Shown: positions 24,333 through 35,199 of the stretch, in pieces
How the letters are laid out: each line of letters opens with the position of its first letter
Numbering within the stretch: position 1 is the stretch's first letter
Translations under genes and position numbers: made by a program
Source: Helicostylum pulchrum
Lineage: Eukaryota > Mucoromycota > Mucoromycetes > Mucorales > Mucoraceae
DNA: 64,000 nt
Direction of reading: 5' to 3'
Assembly: GCA_025677825.1 (NCBI GenBank)
Contig: JAIXMO010000003.1
Coordinates: 434,001-498,000 of the forward strand
Notes under the pieces: model-generated
Database searches by the model: none
What the model was told of the DNA's origin: nothing
The model's input: the letters and a program-made list of their open reading frames with translations, nothing else

Positions 24333-25132
24333 TTATTGAGTAGCAGACATGATTATGTCTGTTCCTAACGTAGTATATGTTACCGCATTTAGTTTCTTAA
24401 TATCTTGACCGTTTGTGAGTGCCGGAACACCATCTTTGCCCATGAACATGGGTGCAATGGTTATGATCAATTGGTCAAATGAACCTGACGACAAACAAGA
24501 CTGAATGATTTTTGAACCTCCTTCAATCATAAGCGTTTCAATACCATGTGTCTTTAGTAATTTAAATACTTGAAGTAACGGTAAATGATCTGATAAAAAA
24601 AAAAAGAGTTTTTAGCATATGAAACTGTTATACACACACAAGTATATATTTTACCGTCGTTTGTTTCAACTACAAGAATCTTGACTCCTAAATGCTCTAG
24701 TAGTACCTTCTTTTCCTGATTGATATCACACCCTTTACGAGACGCAACCAACCATACCTGCTTACCCTTGCCCGATCGGTAATTCGTGATGAGTTTACAG
24801 GTATCTGGTAACTTTAGAAAGGGGTCCATGATAATCGGTTGAGGTTGTTCAAAAGTGAGTGTGGACGAGACGTACCTGGCGTTTAATTGAGGATCGTCGA
24901 CGAGTGCAGTGCCGATGCCTACCATAATACCTTGATGGAGTGTACGTAGTCGGTGCGTCATGGCTAAACTCTCCTTGCCGCTGATCAACACTTGCTGACC
25001 CCGTTTGGATATCATACCATCTAAACTTTGCGCAAACGTTAAAGTTATAAACGGCCGCGATACATTTTGGGGTACTGATTTATAGATTGGACTTAAAAAT
25101 GTTTCTACTTGCTCGTATACCGCTTGTTCCAT
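24333..25132 (-). CDS. RIB7: 2,5-diamino-6-ribosylamino-pyrimidinone 5'-phosphate reductase (riboflavin pathway), 244 aa, 2 exons
   Basis: NADPH-dependent reduction of the diaminopyrimidine side chain, an early step of fungal riboflavin synthesis. Exons 25132-24655 and 24589-24333 give 244 aa, the same length as yeast Rib7. Motifs are RPFITLTFAQSLDGMIS at the N-terminus, VGIGTALVDDPQLNAR in the middle and LMIEGGSKII in exon 2, characteristic of the RibD C-terminal reductase fold. Cytosolic enzyme with no targeting signal. Confidence 0.94.
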
Positions 25133-26262
25133 AGTTTTTTGAAAGAGGGTGGTTTAGGGAAAAAAGGTAAACAAAAAAAAAGTTTTTTTTTTTTTTTTTT
25201 CGCAAGCGCAGTTTAAGTTTGAAGAAAGATACATGCACCTCATTTTGCACACTGAAATGGTTTTTTTTTAAAAAAAAAAAGTAGGGCTGTATTATAGACT
25301 AAAAAATAAAGGAATACTACGAATTTAAGAAAACTGATAAACAAGCTTTGTCCGTAATGAAAGATGTCAATAAAACAAGCGACACTGAAAGAAAATCTTT
25401 ACACATGTAAGCATAATAATAAAAAAGAAAATAAATGTAATGCTTTTATTTATCACTACTCCAATTGTTATAAAAGAAAAAAAAATGTGATGATTGATAC
25501 TGAAACACATTTTGATCATATAAAAATAATAATAAAATAGCTACCAAGTGTTAAAAGCAGGCGGTTTTGATCATGCGGTGTTATTATTGTCATCTTTGGT
25601 CAGAGCAACCTCTGACACTTATTAAAATTGGAACGATACAACAGCTTCTCTCTCTATTCAAACATTTTGGAAGTAAGTGAGACGAGATTTTGTGTAAGCC
25701 TTGTTGTTTTTGGTACGGGAACTTTTATATGGATTCTTCTTGTATATGACGAATCATCAATTTTTACAATCAGCTTCAAAAAATATGAAACCGTCTATAA
25801 AGCATCATTAATATTTTGAAAAGAAAAACAGAATAAAAAAAAAAAAATGTCTCCATAATTTCCGAAAAATCGAATTATATACGACATGAGGAACACGATT
25901 ACTCATAGCAGTGGTATACATTCAATACATTTAATAGCTCCTGGAACAAAGTTTTTGATTGCCACCCTGTTCCTTCGTGTCGGCGTTGTTGTGATCCAGT
26001 CCGCCGGATAGCTCGATTAGCAAGGTAACTAGTTTGTTGTTTGCTTCGGCTATCCCCATTTTGTGTTTTCTGTCACATGGGCGGTGACCTCACAAACCTA
26101 AATGATTATATGTCAAACAATGTATTTGGAAAATACAACTAAAGACCTTACCTACTTGAACATGACTATATCATTGTCATCCAGTAACAAATTGTTTAGC
26201 AAGTATACAGTGGTATGCACAGTAGCTGCTCTTTCTAATTGCTTGTCGAGTAAAAGGTTAGT
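25133..26262. other. Gene-poor region left of the inverted repeat
   Basis: Holds a U6 snRNA fragment at 25598. On the minus strand near 26064-25930 a short frame reads MGIAEANNKLVTLLIELSGG, a possible exon relic with no matched partner. No intact gene. Confidence 0.45.
25598..25640 (+). pseudogene. U6 snRNA 5' fragment
   Basis: The 5' hairpin GGTCAGAG-caac-CTCTGAC is followed by ACTTATTAAAATTGGAACGATACA, which matches the highly conserved 5' part of U6 spliceosomal RNA. The conserved ACAGAGA box and the remaining ~60 nt (branch-binding region, 3' stem, Pol III T-run) do not follow; the text switches to unrelated sequence after GATACA. This looks like a truncated copy. A large intron exactly at this point, as in some fungal U6 genes, is possible, but no donor site begins here. 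Confidence 0.7.
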
Positions 26263-26757
26263 TAAGTAGATCTACATAGCCTTATATCCAGGGTGAACGT
26301 AATTATATTAGTTACTTTTAAAGCTTGCTTATTACAAGCCCGTGCTAAAGTTACGCAGACAATACTTACCTTCATCTCACTTTCGATACGACTACTTCTT
26401 GTCTCTCTTTCTATTTATTATTTAGCGGGGTCTGACTAGCACGACATCAGTTACCTCTAGTAACATATTAGTAAATAAAGTTTATCGTTAGCCTTTGTCT
26501 ACTACATATTACTAAATATAAGAGTGGATGTCGTATTTCGTAAATCATTAAATGATTCATATTTCTTTAGTTAAACAAAAAAAGGTTGAAGTTTATTTGT
26601 AGTAGCAAGAGAATTATTATAGTTGAGTATAGATAGTAAAGTGCCATAATATGGAAGCATAAAAAAATAAATTAAAAAGTGTATACATTTAAAGTATATT
26701 CCTAGTAGTTGCTTCAAGATTTGGTACGAGATTATTAACAAAACCAGTAACATAACT

Positions 26758-27138
26758 TTAGTTACCGCCAGGACCACGACCAAAATTATTATCATCACTA
26801 TTACCGCGGGCTTGACCAGGAGGACCATTACCATTAGGACCATTACCATTAGGACCATTGCCATAAGGACCTCTCTTACCAAAAGTGCCAGCTCCACTAG
26901 CAGGATCAGCCTCACTGCCAGCATCAGTACCAGCAGCAGGAGGTTCAGCGCCAACACCAGCACCATCACCACCATTAGCGCCAGCACCATCACCACCAAC
27001 ACCGCCATTAACACCAGTACCACCAACACCACCAGCAGGGTCGACAGAATTACCATCTACTCCATCGCCAGGATTTGCTGAAGCGAAAGTGACTAGGACA
27101 CCAACAAAGATCACAGAGAAGAGAGTATTGACACGCAT
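26758..27138 (-). CDS. Secreted glycine-rich protein, left-arm copy, 126 aa
   Basis: Identical protein to the copy at 32222-32602. Residues 1-21 (MRVNTLFSVIFVGVLVTFAS, then A) form a signal peptide with likely cleavage after ASA. The body is Gly/Asp/Ala-rich (GVGGTGVNGGVGGDGAGAN). A dibasic GKR at ~87-89 is a Kex2-type cleavage site, after which the tail is a short-repeat segment with GNGPN repeated. This is the pattern of fungal secreted Kex2-processed repeat peptides (structural or signalling). It has no cysteines. Function unknown. It reads outward from the spacer. Single exon. Confidence 0.75.
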   Translation of the reverse strand: MRVNTLFSVIFVGVLVTFASANPGDGVDGNSVDPAGGVGGTGVNGGVGGDGAGANGGDGAGVGAEPPAAGTDAGSEADPASGAGTFGKRGPYGNGPNGNGPNGNGPPGQARGNSDDNNFGRGPGGN

Positions 27139-27239
27139 TTTGTTTTGTTTTTTAAAATAAAAAGAAGATATTGAAAGAGAGTGTTTTTGATTTTACATAC
27201 ATGTATATATACAAAAAATAATGATACTAAAAATATGCA

Positions 27240-27410
27240 TTATTGTTTAGTGCTAGCGATTAGTAAGGAGTAGCCTAAAGAGTTGGAAATAGAGTTGGAA
27301 ATAGAGTTGGACATAGAGTTGGACATAGAGTGGTCTAAATAGTAGTCTAAAGAGTAGTCTAAAGAGTAGTCTAAAGAGTTGGACACAGCATTGCATACAG
27401 TGCTCCTCAT
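27240..27410 (-). CDS. Small minisatellite-encoded ORF, left-arm copy, 56 aa
   Basis: Translation from ATG at 27410 consists mostly of a four-residue repeat (SNSI, SNSM, SLDY) encoded by ten 12-bp units at 27264-27383. It lies about 100 bp upstream of the glycine-rich gene on the same strand and is copied exactly in the other arm. It may be a real peptide, a leader element, or just an array that happens to be open. Coding status is doubtful. Confidence 0.35.
   Translation of the reverse strand: MRSTVCNAVSNSLDYSLDYSLDYYLDHSMSNSMSNSISNSISNSLGYSLLIASTKQ
27264..27383 (-). repeat. 12-bp minisatellite, left arm
   Basis: Ten units of consensus (minus strand) TCCAACTCTTTA/GACTACTCTTTA/TCCAACTCTATG. 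Same array as 31977-32096. Confidence 0.9.
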
Positions 27411-27720
27411 TTTTCTAAATAAATTGTAGACAGTATATATTATAGAGACAAAAATATATATATATATATATATTTCTGGCAACTGTCTCTAAATAATAAT
27501 CAAATTGTGGATATGTATTTATATTGATAGCAGTTTTCATGCAACGATATGTCAATGCAACGATATGTTCAAATGATCGAACGTTACGCTATTTGTTGCT
27601 ACATATATAAAAAAATAGTTTCATAATGTAGACTAAAAAAAAAAAAGGAGAAATGTTGATGTATACTGTCGATCCCAAAAAAAAAAAAAAAAAAAGTGCG
27701 ACGCATTTACCTTACTGTGG

Positions 27721-27900
27721 TTATTCCAGTTTTAAGCGTTGTTTACCTGAGCTTATAACCTTCATAAGATACTCCACACCGTCTTTAATGGCTAAGGTTA
27801 TATTCTTGGTTTGATTTGATATCCTCTGAGTTTCATTATTACCTGGTGTAGATAAATCAACCATAGCATCCACTTCAAGAGCAGTATATTCAACAATAAC
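27721..27900 (-). pseudogene. Orphan last exon of a spliced gene, left-arm copy
   Basis: The 60-codon exon (VIVEYTALEVDAMVDLSTPG... to RLKLE stop) is an exact copy of 31461-31640. In the left arm, the exons that precede it on the right side (30560-30863) are absent because the arm ends at 28434. This copy is therefore a truncated gene end without a 5' part. Confidence 0.6.
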
Positions 27901-28345
27901 CTAATTTTCAAAAAGTGATACTTTTATACATGTAAAAAAAAAACACGCATTGTACGTAACGGAAAACTTACTCTGCGAGGAACCTCATGAGGACCACGTT
28001 TTTTTTTTTATATATATACATGTAACATTTCAGTTTCACTAGGGGTATCTTGAAATAATAATAAAAAGAACACTTGCTTCGACGAAGAAACTCCTTCCAT
28101 TTGCTCACGGCCTCATCTCCGACATCTAATGTTTGATAATCCCCAGGAGTCTTTCTCTCTTGGCTTATAACCCGTCATTTTAGGAGGTACAATATCATCG
28201 TCTTAATTATGATGTTCAGTTATTGTACATTTTGAATGTATATTTTTCTAAAAAAAAAAAAAATATGTAAAAAGAAAAAAAGAACCCGTAATGGTAAAAG
28301 TAAGCACAAAAATCATGTAAAAAATTACTTGGAAATATATTTCTC

Positions 28346-28830
28346 AAAATTTACCGCGTTTTCATTTGATTCCAACCATGCTATTTGTTACTATTATGGT
28401 TTACTGTTCTTTTTATTTTATGGCTTTTTAAAAGTTGGAGGGACTACAAGATGATTTTTTTTAAAATCGCTAGTAAAAGTACTAGTAAATAATAAAATAT
28501 TCATTTCAAAATGTAGCGCGTTTTTATTCGAGTATAACTATCTTATTTTTTTACTATGGTCAATTAAATAGCTCTTTTATCTTGTGCTTTTGTAAAAGTT
28601 TTTTTTTTTTGCATGATATTACTGTTATGGTAAAAATATATTTCGTTTCCCGAGATTAGGATTTATTTTAAATCGTTATTTCTTGTTAGTAAAACTACTT
28701 GTGAATAAAATAATATGCCCTTTAAAATGTAGCGCGGCTTATGTGATTCGAACCATGCTATTTTTTACTATAGTCGATTAGACAGTTTTTTTATATATTG
28801 ATTTTATATAAAAGTTGGGGTTTTTTTGTG
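28346..28830 (+). repeat. Three degenerate tandem units at the inner arm boundary
   Basis: Units begin with AAAATTTACCGCG (28346), AAAATGTAGCGCG (~28508) and AAAATGTAGCGCG (~28722). Each continues with GATTCnAACCATGCTATTT-like text, TTACTATnGT and ends with an AAAAGTTgGG-like stretch. The first unit is the inner end of the left arm; the others lie in the spacer. Confidence 0.7.
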
Positions 28831-28927
28831 TGTGACTTAACTTTCATACCCAACTTTCGAGCCAAACTTTCACATTTCGAAAAGTAATCTATAATGCCAC
28901 TTTCAGACAATTTTCTATGTCTGTGTT

Positions 28928-29493
28928 TCAGAAAAAAGATTCTGAGCAGTTTTATAGCCCCTTTTCTTCAAAGTACTTTCCTCAAAATAGACACGCTAAT
29001 GTTACCAGTGATCGAGGCAAGATTCTGCTGATGAATGCCTAATGGTTCAAAAGGCTCTCTGCGAACTAAAATACTCAAACGGCGGTCGTCTATTTCTTTT
29101 AGTACTTCTGGTCACTCAGAACGAGGGTTGACAGAAGGTTATATGATGGATCCAATGGTTGTCCTTAGGGATACCCAATTCTTTGCTAATGTTGGTATTA
29201 TTCCAGTTTGCATGCTGAGAAAGGCCGCAAATGATTCCACGGGTGAAATCTTAAAGGTCTTTTCCTCTTTTCATGACCTTGTCTGCTATGAGAAGAGAAT
29301 TGTCCGCACAAAACCATCTTTGTTTCTTCAGGCACGCTTAGTATTGAAGGGGGGTAATTATAAGCTTCAAAAGCTAATTGATTATAGCGACTTTAAGAAT
29401 CCATTTGTGGGTCGTAGTGCTCATAAAGTTGATAATGGTTTCTACGGTAAGGCATTGGCTTGCTCAAGATATTTGGGAGAATCGATGATTTGA
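28928..29493 (+). pseudogene. Disrupted ORF in the spacer of the inverted repeat
   Basis: Coding-like text runs through three frames: SSKYFPQNRHANVTSDRGKI to 29039, MVQKALCELKYSNGGRLFLL from 29042, then, in the frame that begins with the ATG at 29035, MMDPMVVLRDTQFFANVGII to the stop at 29493 (ends SRYLGESMI). The overlaps indicate frameshifts or missed introns. The product is not recognised; there are no transposase or reverse-transcriptase motifs that I can see. It may be part of the same locus as the exons from 30560. Confidence 0.45.
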
Positions 29494-30559
29494 AGGTGTT
29501 CACGTACGAACGTGAGTAATATAAAAAAGTTACCGTTTTTGATAACAAGCTAATTAGCAAAAAAATAAAATAGCGCTGGCATTGGGAGTTGTTTAATGAT
29601 TGTTCCCAAAACATTCATTCTTTGAGAATTGAGGGTCGCTATCAAGCTGACCAAATTAATGATGAGTTGACAACAAACATCAAAGAAAAAGCAATGTAAG
29701 CAAAACTATTTCTAAAATATATAAGACAAACACTAACATCTAATTTACGTTTTCAAAAGTTGGCGTATCATGAACAAATGCTATTTACAGCTGATACCTC
29801 CTATGTATACCTGTGTGTGAAAAAAAAAAGTGGTCTTGTATAATTTATGATAAAATAAATTTTTTTATCATTTATATTTTTTTTGGCAACTTTTCAAACG
29901 AAGCTTTTTTCCTGTGGTATGATGGTGCAAACAGATACGGTTCGCTTAAAACTGGCGAATAGCCACAGGAAAATAAAAGGTAAATGCATCATGCTTTTTT
30001 GATTGACCGCGTAAAATCGACCGTGTATAATAGGAATCGATCGTTGAAGCAATACAACAATATCACAAACATGCACTCTTTCGTTTAAAATGAGGAAACA
30101 AAAAAAAAGAAGTTGTTAATGACACACAACGGGTAGAAACGGCAGAGAATCTTAACCCGCGGTATGGTTATTTTTTCATACGCAGAGTATATCTCATAAA
30201 GTGAAATCGTAACAAATAGCTTACTCTCATGAAAACTTTGAATAAAACAGAAAAAGCAAAAGCGTTACATGTCACCAAAGCAATAAACCTGTTTGCGGTA
30301 AAATCCGAACTATCATAAAATATTGTTGAAGTCTTATTTATTCTTCTTTAGAAAAGGAACAATGCGAGTTTCGCCTTTAGTAAATAGTATCAGGAGTATT
30401 GGGAGGGTATAAACCGTGATCAACATCAGTACAAGCTGCGTAAAAGAACAAGGACTATCACTGACAACCTTTTGAATTCCGTAACCAGAATGGTATAGTA
30501 TCATTTGATTTTATTAGTATCCAAGTTGTTTCTTAACTAAACAACGTTCTTTTAATTAG

Positions 30560-31640
30560 ATTAAGCCTACAAGTACAGGTGAATTAGAAGATATAAACCC
30601 CATAAAAACAGCAGAAGAGCAATATGAGTTGTAAGTATAAAAGTGCTTACTTATTTAATATCTCGTTAAATAAGCTTTAATACTTGTTAAATAGGATAAG
30701 TGGATATCCGATCATAAATATTGATGATCAACGGGCGCAAGTGTTAGTTGGTGAAGATGTAACTGATCAAATCAAAGCGAAGACGACTATTCCTGCTTAT
30801 CAATTATCAAATTTCGCTCATAAGTTAATTAAAGATATTGAAGAAGGATGTGCTTGTGTTAAGGTATTAAGGGTATCGCTCAGAACCCACATTTCCACTG
30901 ATATTAAAATCGACATCAACCAAGAGCTTTTAAAAAACCATAAAATAAAAAGAACAGTAAACCATAATAGTAACAAATAGCATGGTTGGAATCAAATGAA
31001 AACGCGGTAAATTTTGAGAAATATATTTCCAAGTAATTTTTTACATGATTTTTGTGCTTACTTTTACCATTACGGGTTCTTTTTTTCTTTTTACATATTT
31101 TTTTTTTTTTTAGAAAAATATACATTCAAAATGTACAATAACTGAACATCATAATTAAGACGATGATATTGTACCTCCTAAAATGACGGGTTATAAGCCA
31201 AGAGAGAAAGACTCCTGGGGATTATCAAACATTAGATGTCGGAGATGAGGCCGTGAGCAAATGGAAGGAGTTTCTTCGTCGAAGCAAGTGTTCTTTTTAT
31301 TATTATTTCAAGATACCCCTAGTGAAACTGAAATGTTACATGTATATATATAAAAAAAAAAACGTGGTCCTCATGAGGTTCCTCGCAGAGTAAGTTTTCC
31401 GTTACGTACAATGCGTGTTTTTTTTTTACATGTATAAAAGTATCACTTTTTGAAAATTAGGTTATTGTTGAATATACTGCTCTTGAAGTGGATGCTATGG
31501 TTGATTTATCTACACCAGGTAATAATGAAACTCAGAGGATATCAAATCAAACCAAGAATATAACCTTAGCCATTAAAGACGGTGTGGAGTATCTTATGAA
31601 GGTTATAAGCTCAGGTAAACAACGCTTAAAACTGGAATAA
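30560..31640 (+). CDS. Partly resolved spliced gene crossing the inner edge of the right arm
   Basis: Exon 30560-30630 (IKPTSTGELEDINPIKTAEE, then QYE) joins 30695-30863 (LISGYPIINIDDQRAQVLVG ... GCACVK) in phase through a 64-nt intron with a GTAAGT donor. In the right arm a piece ending GPHEVPRR at 31389 (perfect GTAAGT) joins 31461-31640 (VIVEYTALEVDAMVDLSTPG ... RLKLE stop) in phase. Between them a frame QERKTPGDYQTLDVGDEAVS may be another exon, but its ends are unclear. Upstream, 29591-29696 (RIEGRYQADQINDELTTNIK) could be an earlier exon. I do not recognise the family. Whether the whole is functional is uncertain; the last exon also exists as an orphan in the left arm. Confidence 0.45.
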
Positions 31641-31949
31641 CCACAGTAAGGTAAATGCGTCGCACTTTTTTTTTTTTTTTTTTGGGATCGACAGTATACA
31701 TCAACATTTCTCCTTTTTTTTTTTTAGTCTACATTATGAAACTATTTTTTTATATATGTAGCAACAAATAGCGTAACGTTCGATCATTTGAACATATCGT
31801 TGCATTGACATATCGTTGCATGAAAACTGCTATCAATATAAATACATATCCACAATTTGATTATTATTTAGAGACAGTTGCCAGAAATATATATATATAT
31901 ATATATTTTTGTCTCTATAATATATACTGTCTACAATTTATTTAGAAAA

Positions 31950-32120
31950 ATGAGGAGCACTGTATGCAATGCTGTGTCCAACTCTTTAGACTACTCTTTA
32001 GACTACTCTTTAGACTACTATTTAGACCACTCTATGTCCAACTCTATGTCCAACTCTATTTCCAACTCTATTTCCAACTCTTTAGGCTACTCCTTACTAA
32101 TCGCTAGCACTAAACAATAA
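31950..32120 (+). CDS. Small minisatellite-encoded ORF, right-arm copy, 56 aa
   Basis: Identical to 27410-27240. Start ATG at 31950, repeat-encoded body, end LLIASTKQ. A long (TA)n run lies just upstream (31889-31910). Coding status is doubtful. Confidence 0.35.
   Translation: MRSTVCNAVSNSLDYSLDYSLDYYLDHSMSNSMSNSISNSISNSLGYSLLIASTKQ
31977..32096 (+). repeat. 12-bp minisatellite, right arm
   Basis: Ten 12-bp units, so the array keeps the reading frame; units differ in a pattern that suggests two sub-families (TCCAACTCTATN and GACTACTCTTTA). Confidence 0.9.
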
Positions 32121-32221
32121 TGCATATTTTTAGTATCATTATTTTTTGTATATATACATGTATGTAAAATCAAAAACACTCTCTTTCAATATCTTCTTTT
32201 TATTTTAAAAAACAAAACAAA

Positions 32222-32602
32222 ATGCGTGTCAATACTCTCTTCTCTGTGATCTTTGTTGGTGTCCTAGTCACTTTCGCTTCAGCAAATCCTGGCGATGGAG
32301 TAGATGGTAATTCTGTCGACCCTGCTGGTGGTGTTGGTGGTACTGGTGTTAATGGCGGTGTTGGTGGTGATGGTGCTGGCGCTAATGGTGGTGATGGTGC
32401 TGGTGTTGGCGCTGAACCTCCTGCTGCTGGTACTGATGCTGGCAGTGAGGCTGATCCTGCTAGTGGAGCTGGCACTTTTGGTAAGAGAGGTCCTTATGGC
32501 AATGGTCCTAATGGTAATGGTCCTAATGGTAATGGTCCTCCTGGTCAAGCCCGCGGTAATAGTGATGATAATAATTTTGGTCGTGGTCCTGGCGGTAACT
32601 AA
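32222..32602 (+). CDS. Secreted glycine-rich protein, right-arm copy, 126 aa
   Basis: Same protein as the left-arm gene. The ATG is preceded by a CT-rich and A-rich leader with TATATATACA about 70 nt upstream, so the promoter is inside the arm and also duplicated. Signal peptide at 1-21, Gly/Asp/Ala-rich body, Kex2-like KR at ~88-89, tail of GNGPN repeats, end GRGPGGN. Both copies read away from the spacer. Confidence 0.75.
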   Translation: MRVNTLFSVIFVGVLVTFASANPGDGVDGNSVDPAGGVGGTGVNGGVGGDGAGANGGDGAGVGAEPPAAGTDAGSEADPASGAGTFGKRGPYGNGPNGNGPNGNGPPGQARGNSDDNNFGRGPGGN

Positions 32603-33097
32603 AGTTATGTTACTGGTTTTGTTAATAATCTCGTACCAAATCTTGAAGCAACTACTAGGAATATACTTTAAATGTATACACTTTTTAATTTATTTTTTTA
32701 TGCTTCCATATTATGGCACTTTACTATCTATACTCAACTATAATAATTCTCTTGCTACTACAAATAAACTTCAACCTTTTTTTGTTTAACTAAAGAAATA
32801 TGAATCATTTAATGATTTACGAAATACGACATCCACTCTTATATTTAGTAATATGTAGTAGACAAAGGCTAACGATAAACTTTATTTACTAATATGTTAC
32901 TAGAGGTAACTGATGTCGTGCTAGTCAGACCCCGCTAAATAATAAATAGAAAGAGAGACAAGAAGTAGTCGTATCGAAAGTGAGATGAAGGTAAGTATTG
33001 TCTGCGTAACTTTAGCACGGGCTTGTAATAAGCAAGCTTTAAAAGTAACTAATATAATTACATTCACCCTGGATATAAGGCTATGTATATCTACTTA

Positions 33098-33974
33098 TAT
33101 ACATTGATATGTGTATAAGTTAGAATGCAAAACTCCTTAAAAAATGACAAGGCAAAATAAATAAAAATCGACAACTACTAATTTTTCCTCTTAATGTGTT
33201 TTATCTTAGTGGTAGATAAAGCGAGCTATCTACCTCTTGGAGTACTTATATCTCAAAGAGAAACACAAAAATATACCTTTGCAAAAAAAAAAAAAGTTTA
33301 CTTTTTACATTTATTTATAAAAACTTTTATAAATGAGATAGACATGTTTTCAAGAAAAGTAACTTTGGAAAAGTCTGAATTTCGAGAATGTAGCACAGTA
33401 AATAAAGAGACACTTAAAAAAAAACAAGTAAAGTCAAAACGATAGTTTTAAAGGTCAAAATTAATTAAATAGTTTGGGATGTTATTTAACTCATAGTTAC
33501 TTGGGAGGAGTAAATAGTCCTTTAGAAGCAAGAAAAAAGTAGGTTTATACCTAAAATTACAAAACAAGAAATTTCTAATTTTACGTAGAGTTGAATATTA
33601 TCGACATAGAAAGAACGAATGTACTTTTAATAAAAACGGATATCCTTTCTTTGTAAATAGCTGTTATAGAGTTTGTTTAAGCGTATTTTCTATTTATTTA
33701 TTTATCTCTTTTGTTATTAGGCTTGAAAAAAAAAATCGATACTACGCTTCATTATGTATAAACGCTTAGCAAGTAATAAAAATCAGAGACGATGAACGTT
33801 TTTTTTTAATAAATAGTAGGTATCTCATTTTTTTTTTAGCCACTTTTATTATTATTATGACTACGATGTATATGTATATACAAATTGAGAGATAAAAGAA
33901 GAAGAAAAAAAAATATATATATACTAGGTAAAAAATTGATTATGATAAAATATACAGGGCCAATAAAAAAAAGC
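33098..33974. other. Intergenic region right of the inverted repeat
   Basis: No gene supported. An 83-codon frame at 33194-33445 is Lys-rich and motif-free. Confidence 0.55.
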
Positions 33975-35199
33975 TCAAAGCAACGCATCAGCAGAACCAG
34001 CGTCTCTTCTTTCTTCATTCAAGTAACGTTGATACAAAGAACGAGTCATTGAACTACAACCTTGTAACGGACCCACGCCATTTGTTGTACTAAATCTCGG
34101 CATACGTTGATCTTCTAAATTGACAGCAATATTCGAGCCCGAAGCTAACTTATCGATCCATCCAAACACGGCGGCGTTTGTCTGTACTTGTATCAGTACC
34201 TGCGGCCCCTCAAATGTAATGATTCGAAACACATGATCTCGCTTTATGTAATCCGTAGCTAGTTCTGCCTTCATATGAGCCAACGATAAAGTAAACAATA
34301 ATTCGTATTTGACTGGCTGGTAAAATGGAGTCAATCGGTAACGGCCGACGGGCGGAGTATTTGGGACGATTTCATACAATTTTAATACGGTGCCTTGTAA
34401 TTCTAAATAGACGTCTTTCCAAGACCTGAATCGAGGTTTTAGACCGGGTGCTTTAAATTCTATTTTTGCTTTTGCTTTACCCATTTTTTGAACGGTGCAT
34501 GTGTAATTTGGGAGTTCTTCGTTTTGATGAGGGTAGGAGGAGTTGGATCTGACACATTTGCTGTTGTTGTCCTGCTGATGAGCTTCACGGTACGTTGGAG
34601 GTACTAAGCTAGACTCAGAATGACGACGATGGGTGTCTGCTGGTGTTGGCGGAGGAGGAGTCTTTTTGATGATTGAATTTGGCCATTTTTGTTGCTCAGC
34701 AGCAGTTGTCAACAAGGTATCGTATTTTCGTAAAGAAAGAAAAGATTTGAAACTGTTCTTTTTTAGCAAAATTGGTGGTGTATCACCAACATATATTGGG
34801 GAAGGTAACATGACCGGAGATTCTTCCGAAGCACTACTATCATCTGTGGAAGAAATAGAAGAGAATGATGTTCTACGGATAGACTGAGCACATTGCGATA
34901 ATCGTTGACAATCTCGCTCTTTACGAATACCGCAGTTTTTAAAATCGGTGTCGTTTGTCATTTGCATAAATTGGTTTAGATCGACGTCTTTCAAGTGTGA
35001 ACTGTAGCGGAGTAGTTGCAGTTGGTTTAGTATATCATCTAATAAAAAAATGGTTTATTTAAGCTCCCCTTTTTTTTGTGTGTGTGTGTATGTAAAATCA
35101 GTTTATAGTTAAAAACTTACTTGTAGTTGATATGTTGTTCCCATGCTGCGTGTCTTGTACAATAATAATAGGATATTGCTGGTTTTGTGATTTAAACAT
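33975..35199 (-). CDS. SAM-PH domain protein, 380 aa, 2 exons
   Basis: Exons 35199-35121 and 35038-33975. Residues ~25-85 form a SAM-like domain (ILNQLQLLRYSSHLKDVDLN, FMQMTNDTDFKNCGIRKERD). A Ser/Pro-rich linker follows (TPPPPTPADTHRRHSESS), then a PH domain at ~230-340 (KPRFRSWKDVYLELQGTVLK, LYEI ... WIDKLASGSNIAV). SAM plus PH recalls yeast Boi1/Boi2 polarity scaffolds, but no SH3 domain is present, so orthology is unproven. A membrane-lipid-binding adaptor is the safest description. Confidence 0.82.

Follow-up and report, generated by a model that had tools for sequence, protein, structure and literature searches.

A long inverted repeat that probably marks a gene-splitting inversion with one duplicated edge in the mould Helicostylum pulchrum

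The window analyzed here, a stretch of 64,000 nucleotides from Helicostylum pulchrum to which all coordinates refer, carries two long inverted arms that enclose a spacer of 2.49 kb (28435-30926), with one part of a gene outside the left arm and the other in the spacer, next to the right arm. The left arm lies at 26263-28434 on the plus strand (2,172 bp) and the right arm, its reverse complement, at 30927-33097 on the minus strand (2,171 bp). The arms are real and are reverse-complementary along their full length, as an initial annotation made from the letters of this DNA had noticed, with coordinates good to within 1 base. That annotation had proposed aligning the arms and searching for them elsewhere in the genome, and both were done. 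Self-BLAST of 26263-28434 against 33097-30927 (minus strand) gave 2,172 columns at 99.8% identity, with 3 mismatches and 1 gap. The gap corresponds to a run of 19 A at 27677-27695 that faces 18 T at 31666-31683, a homopolymer difference that was already noted, with its position off by one base. Given in left-arm orientation, the mismatches are C/A at 26272, C/T at 26298 and C/T at 28424 (right-arm positions 33088, 33062 and 30937). Their distances to the closer edge of the arm are 9, 35 and 10 bp, and no substitution falls in the 2,125 bp that separate the outer ones from the inner one. Under random placement, finding all three substitutions no more than 36 bp from an arm edge has P = 3.6e-5, a figure calculated post hoc. 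The identical middle and differing edges pointed out earlier are confirmed.

The pair of arms exceeds chance, considering that the longest inverted pair in 22 other loci of this genome (190,566 bases, picked for holding relatives) reached only 202 bp at 76%. Searches of the organism's own genome covered 32,194,346 bases in 168 contigs, and the arm found at least 68 matches there, a lower bound because 40 of 47 candidates were scored. Among these, only the two arms themselves were near-identical, the others being partial relatives at 67-93%. The long frames translate to the same proteins in the left and the right arm, again as first described. The arms also carry an orphan frame of 126 aa, glycine rich and with a signal-like start, at 26761-27138 on the minus strand and, as an identical copy, at 32222-32599 on the plus strand. 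No homologue of it was found among 2,200 scored candidates, and within the genome it occurs only in the two arms, apart from contig C94 (locus L027), where its first 24 residues have a degenerate counterpart.

We then looked at which of the four arm edges are old, aligning the window between 25000 and 34500 to 20 fetched loci that hold partial relatives and leaving out, as mirror images, rows lying wholly inside 30900-33110. In 7 of the 20 loci (L020, L024, L026, L030, L031, L032 and L034), single alignments extend across the inner edge of the left arm (28434/28435), reaching 80 bp or more to either side, for example over 27778-28788 at 74% in L024 and over 27975-28788 at 78% in L026. Tandem units of about 215 bp lie at this edge and the shorter crossing alignments could be one unit off, while those of L024, L026 and L032 are long enough to be independent of such a shift. 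What runs on from the left arm here is a dispersed degenerate repeat (28435-28857, plus strand), the old inner flank. The outer edge of the right arm (33097/33098) is crossed in 2 of the 20 loci, L027 (32934-33505, 72%) and L036 (32963-33165, 80%), and a genome search with the right flank led to the same two places; on contig C94 the old right flank (33098-33505) is matched together with the outer part of the arm. The matches of L027 and L036 to the left arm end exactly at 26263. Among the alignments listed for these 20 loci, none crosses 26262/26263 (left flank to left arm) or 30926/30927 (spacer to right arm). As relatives cross the former two junctions and none of those listed crosses the latter two, the left inner and the right outer junctions are old and the others new, and comparison with these diverged relatives shows each arm as having one junction of either kind.

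The new junction between spacer and right arm is also crossed by a protein from a separate assembly, P0002 (98 residues, on a contig of 1,061 bp), which matches the spacer frame without a difference as far as the junction and goes on for 17 residues into the arm; this check covers the spacer/right-arm junction and not the left outer one. Neither new junction shares end bases with the arm's old flank, and at 26262/26263 not a single base is common with the old outer flank. The left flank (25100-26280) has only three other matches in the genome, all short (33, 33 and 47 bp). With matches this short and no end bases in common at the new joins, there are no matching repeats at both breakpoints.

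A gene is split between the two new junctions. Its 5' half lies at 30250-30926 on the plus strand, with exons near 30250-30495, 30560-30631 and 30696-30926 as placed by mapping the public gene model EDC94DRAFT_580294 (P0001) and the Rhizopus stolonifer protein P0008, and its degenerate 3' half lies at 25639-26262 on the minus strand. P0008 falls on the window in two pieces, residues 27-105 at 30681-30917 on the plus strand and residues 136-298 at 26241-25639 on the minus strand. When the spacer is turned back, position 30926 meets the reverse complement of 26262 and the reading frame continues in phase through the join. Besides the window's own pieces, the joined protein has paralogues in the same genome on contigs C83 (49%, residues 124-162) and C114 (50%, residues 127-162). 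In both, the part matching the spacer sits just upstream of the part matching the left flank, on the same strand, and two further pieces of the left flank keep the order seen in the paralogues.

A profile made of three sequences, the joined query and the two paralogues, found 19 proteins, in a search whose scoring was confined to the 7,993 candidates with the most words in common. The proteins found come from Parasitella, Backusella, Rhizopus, Pilaira, Helicostylum, Thamnidium, Mucor, Apophysomyces and other samples. The joined query aligns over 40 residues or more to either side of the join in 9 of 20 proteins (P0003, P0004, P0005, P0006, P0008, P0013, P0016, P0018 and P0020), and each half alone matches, in the correct order, 5 of the 20: P0003 of Parasitella parasitica, P0005 and P0008 of Rhizopus stolonifer, P0006 of Rhizopus delemar and P0013 of Mucor saturninus. 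No Pfam family was found above its cut-off for the arm frames, the spacer frames or the split gene, and matches below the cut-off to DUF7242, Herpes_UL92 and E6 (E 0.08-0.1) were taken as chance. By these protein comparisons, the split gene belongs to a Mucorales-wide family without a Pfam model.

These observations make it very probable that the locus arose by an inversion together with a duplication, whatever the route. In the older order, the left flank (up to 26262) would have been followed by the reversed spacer (30926 to 28435), a single arm in right-arm orientation and the right flank (from 33098), the spacer of today being inverted relative to it. As for the route, a single step with staggered breaks appears the most probable, although we hold it less firmly than the inversion itself. 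A first break would have fallen inside the gene of the Mucorales family, where about 20 codons are missing, and a second would have been staggered by about 2.17 kb. Filling in both overhangs would have produced the arms, and the middle piece of about 4.7 kb would have been turned round and its ends joined without shared bases, giving left flank, arm, spacer, arm and right flank. The absence of shared bases at the new junctions is as expected of end joining. The locus also presents four of the features by which a staggered-break inversion would be recognized: inverted duplicates at both ends of the turned piece, one old and one new junction for each duplicate, a broken locus that is restored (short of about 20 codons) by turning the piece back, and no matching repeats at both breakpoints. 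The initial annotation had offered a hairpin-generated segmental duplication among its explanations; the duplication was right in substance but would be part of an inversion that splits a gene, which had not been seen, and no hairpin is required. The public gene model EDC94DRAFT_580294 (29919-31805) joins the exons of the 5' half to exons of the right arm and is a chimeric model produced by the inversion. The inversion would also have doubled a gene without known relative.

Several points weigh against this account. About 20 codons are absent at the join that are present in 7 of 7 aligned relatives, so that either sequence was lost at the break or the gene had been damaged before it, and the in-phase join is partly luck; the paralogue on C83 has stops, probably an intron, where the window lacks these residues. 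A lossless join before the inversion, first drawn from the in-phase frame, was rejected on the same comparison. The split gene is degenerate, and its pieces were joined for the searches across frame changes and a stop. Moreover, the 20 proteins came from a profile that contained the joined query, the halves matched separately being the cleaner test. The older order was deduced from relatives of its parts and was not observed in any chromosome. The arms are able to recombine, so the present orientation of the spacer need not be the original one. Finally, all three substitutions appear, from the bases in relatives, to have arisen in the right arm, two being at its old edge. At 26298 both relatives carry the left-arm base, as do, at 28424, all three relatives that belong to the same repeat unit (L026, L030 and L032), while at 26272 the relatives disagree, L027 having the left-arm base and L036 a third one. 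Loci L017, L018, L023 and L024 show the right-arm base at 28424 and were set aside, as the cut stretches match the next repeat unit (28505 on). Mutation linked to the breaks at the new edges was considered and is unsupported, considering that the changes seem to be those of the right arm and that two are at its old edge.

Differences restricted to the edges are consistent with gene conversion between the arms, which we infer from three changes only. Conversion, proposed in the initial annotation, is still a fair reading of the identical middle with its edge-confined substitutions. Dating the event from the identity of the arms was rejected, because conversion could have reset it.

The strongest competitor of the one-step inversion is a two-step history, unlikely but to be taken seriously, in which the broken gene was repaired by inserting an inverted copy of the 2.17 kb close by, leaving arm, reversed spacer and arm, and recombination between the arms later flipped the spacer. 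Its end product has the same order of parts. Recombination is possible between inverted arms so long and so alike, and the identical middle with differing edges suggests that it takes place. In addition, P0002 reads Ser in place of the window's Asn, a change that corresponds to the base of the left arm's inner edge standing beside spacer base 30926, and this is what a flipped molecule would show. However, the history takes two events, and the P0002 base is also likely ancestral (the three relatives L026, L030 and L032 all have it), so that a flip is unnecessary. A flip, the ancestral base or conversion would each explain the base in P0002. It is conceivable, if doubtful, that the locus is a living switch, in which recombination between the arms continues to flip the 2.49-kb spacer in H. 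pulchrum, conversion keeps the arms alike and P0002 represents the other orientation. Such a switch would move the start of the chimeric gene (EDC94DRAFT_580294) between two contexts.

A single replication error, by template switching between forks or strands, would give the same product, making the inversion and its duplicated edge without staggered breaks. Template switching often uses short homology. Neither new junction has a single shared base, and we regard this route as improbable. In its favor, the portion of PMC7584159 consulted considers, for the Drosophila inversion O7, that such duplications may come from repair alone, and inverted duplications following double-strand breaks are studied in yeast according to the opening of PMC10622511.

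That the assembler placed the arm twice or turned the spacer, an artefact already suspected in the initial annotation, is very unlikely. Long inverted repeats are hard to assemble and the middle 2,125 bp are free of substitutions, but the copies differ at four places, the new junctions have no common sequence that could mislead an assembler, and the split gene and the P0002 protein of the separate assembly, which crosses the spacer/right-arm junction, speak against it. A source of the same kind as that of P0002 gave P0011, nearly identical to the C83 paralogue with two residues differing by eye, and at least one such source is therefore not this strain. The weakest alternative, a foldback-type transposon with the arms as terminal inverted repeats (the new class of long foldback element put forward at first), was rejected as scarcely credible: long inverted arms round a spacer in a repeat-rich stretch do recall one, but two of the arm edges are not ends, the sequence going on in relatives, no second copy of the whole structure was found by own-genome searches that give lower bounds, no exact direct repeats of 4-10 bp flank the whole structure or either arm, no exact inverted repeats of 6-20 bp link the two ends of an arm, and Pfam finds no transposase in five proteins tested, the lack of target-site duplication and transposase agreeing with the initial annotation.

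Staggered-break inversions were reportedly described in Drosophila by Ranz et al. in 2007. Long inverted arms round a spacer are reportedly also seen in foldback-type transposons such as Galileo, unlike which the arm edges here are not element ends and the structure is single-copy, without target-site duplication. The one-step inversion favored here looks like a further example, this time from a mould, of a type of event that Drosophila also shows. In the sections of PMC5080602 available, inversion O8 of Drosophila subobscura and five others show the same pattern, with the duplicate coming from one breakpoint only. As in O8, so far as those sections go, an inverted duplication from one breakpoint stands at both ends of the turned piece, a gene is cut at the break and no repeat is needed at both breakpoints. 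Unlike in O8, the host is a mould, the turned piece is only about 4.7 kb, the duplicate is as long as the spacer and the older order comes from relatives of the parts. The accessible text of PMC7584159 presents two staggering models that the pattern cannot tell apart, mentions stalled forks whose single-stranded part reaches up to 3 kb, and allows a repair-only origin. In the yeast duplications, as far as the extract of PMC10622511 describes them, the duplication is likewise made by a break; they arise by foldback priming, whereas here the arms are separated by a 2.49-kb spacer and the turn has split a gene. No staggered or inverted-duplication inversion in a fungus was found in the literature searched (fungal, yeast and Mucorales, with a limited library and few terms). 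The event is legible from one genome by means of diverged repeat relatives, each arm having one old and one new junction with the gene split across the new ones, and this signature offers a route to finding such inversions without a second genome.

We also scanned the locus for other features. No RNA family reached the gathering threshold in 25500-34000, and a bacterial-code tRNA finder reported no tRNA in the window. Within the spacer, 29892-30072 is a dispersed repeat with at least 14 other places in the genome at 71-89%. Two further spacer pieces, one of 40 bp (28869-28909) and a longer one (28908-29290), recur in several other loci, where the 40-bp piece, oppositely oriented, adjoins the longer one at its 29290 end. 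The longer piece therefore seems turned here, perhaps by an older small inversion or as a transposon end. Relatives of the inner repeat (L017, L018, L024, L025, L026, L028 and L029) contain units of about 90-150 bp whose orientation alternates and which could fold into hairpins. Close to the outer edge of the right arm, a stem of 8 bp with a 6-bp loop extends over 33083-33104.

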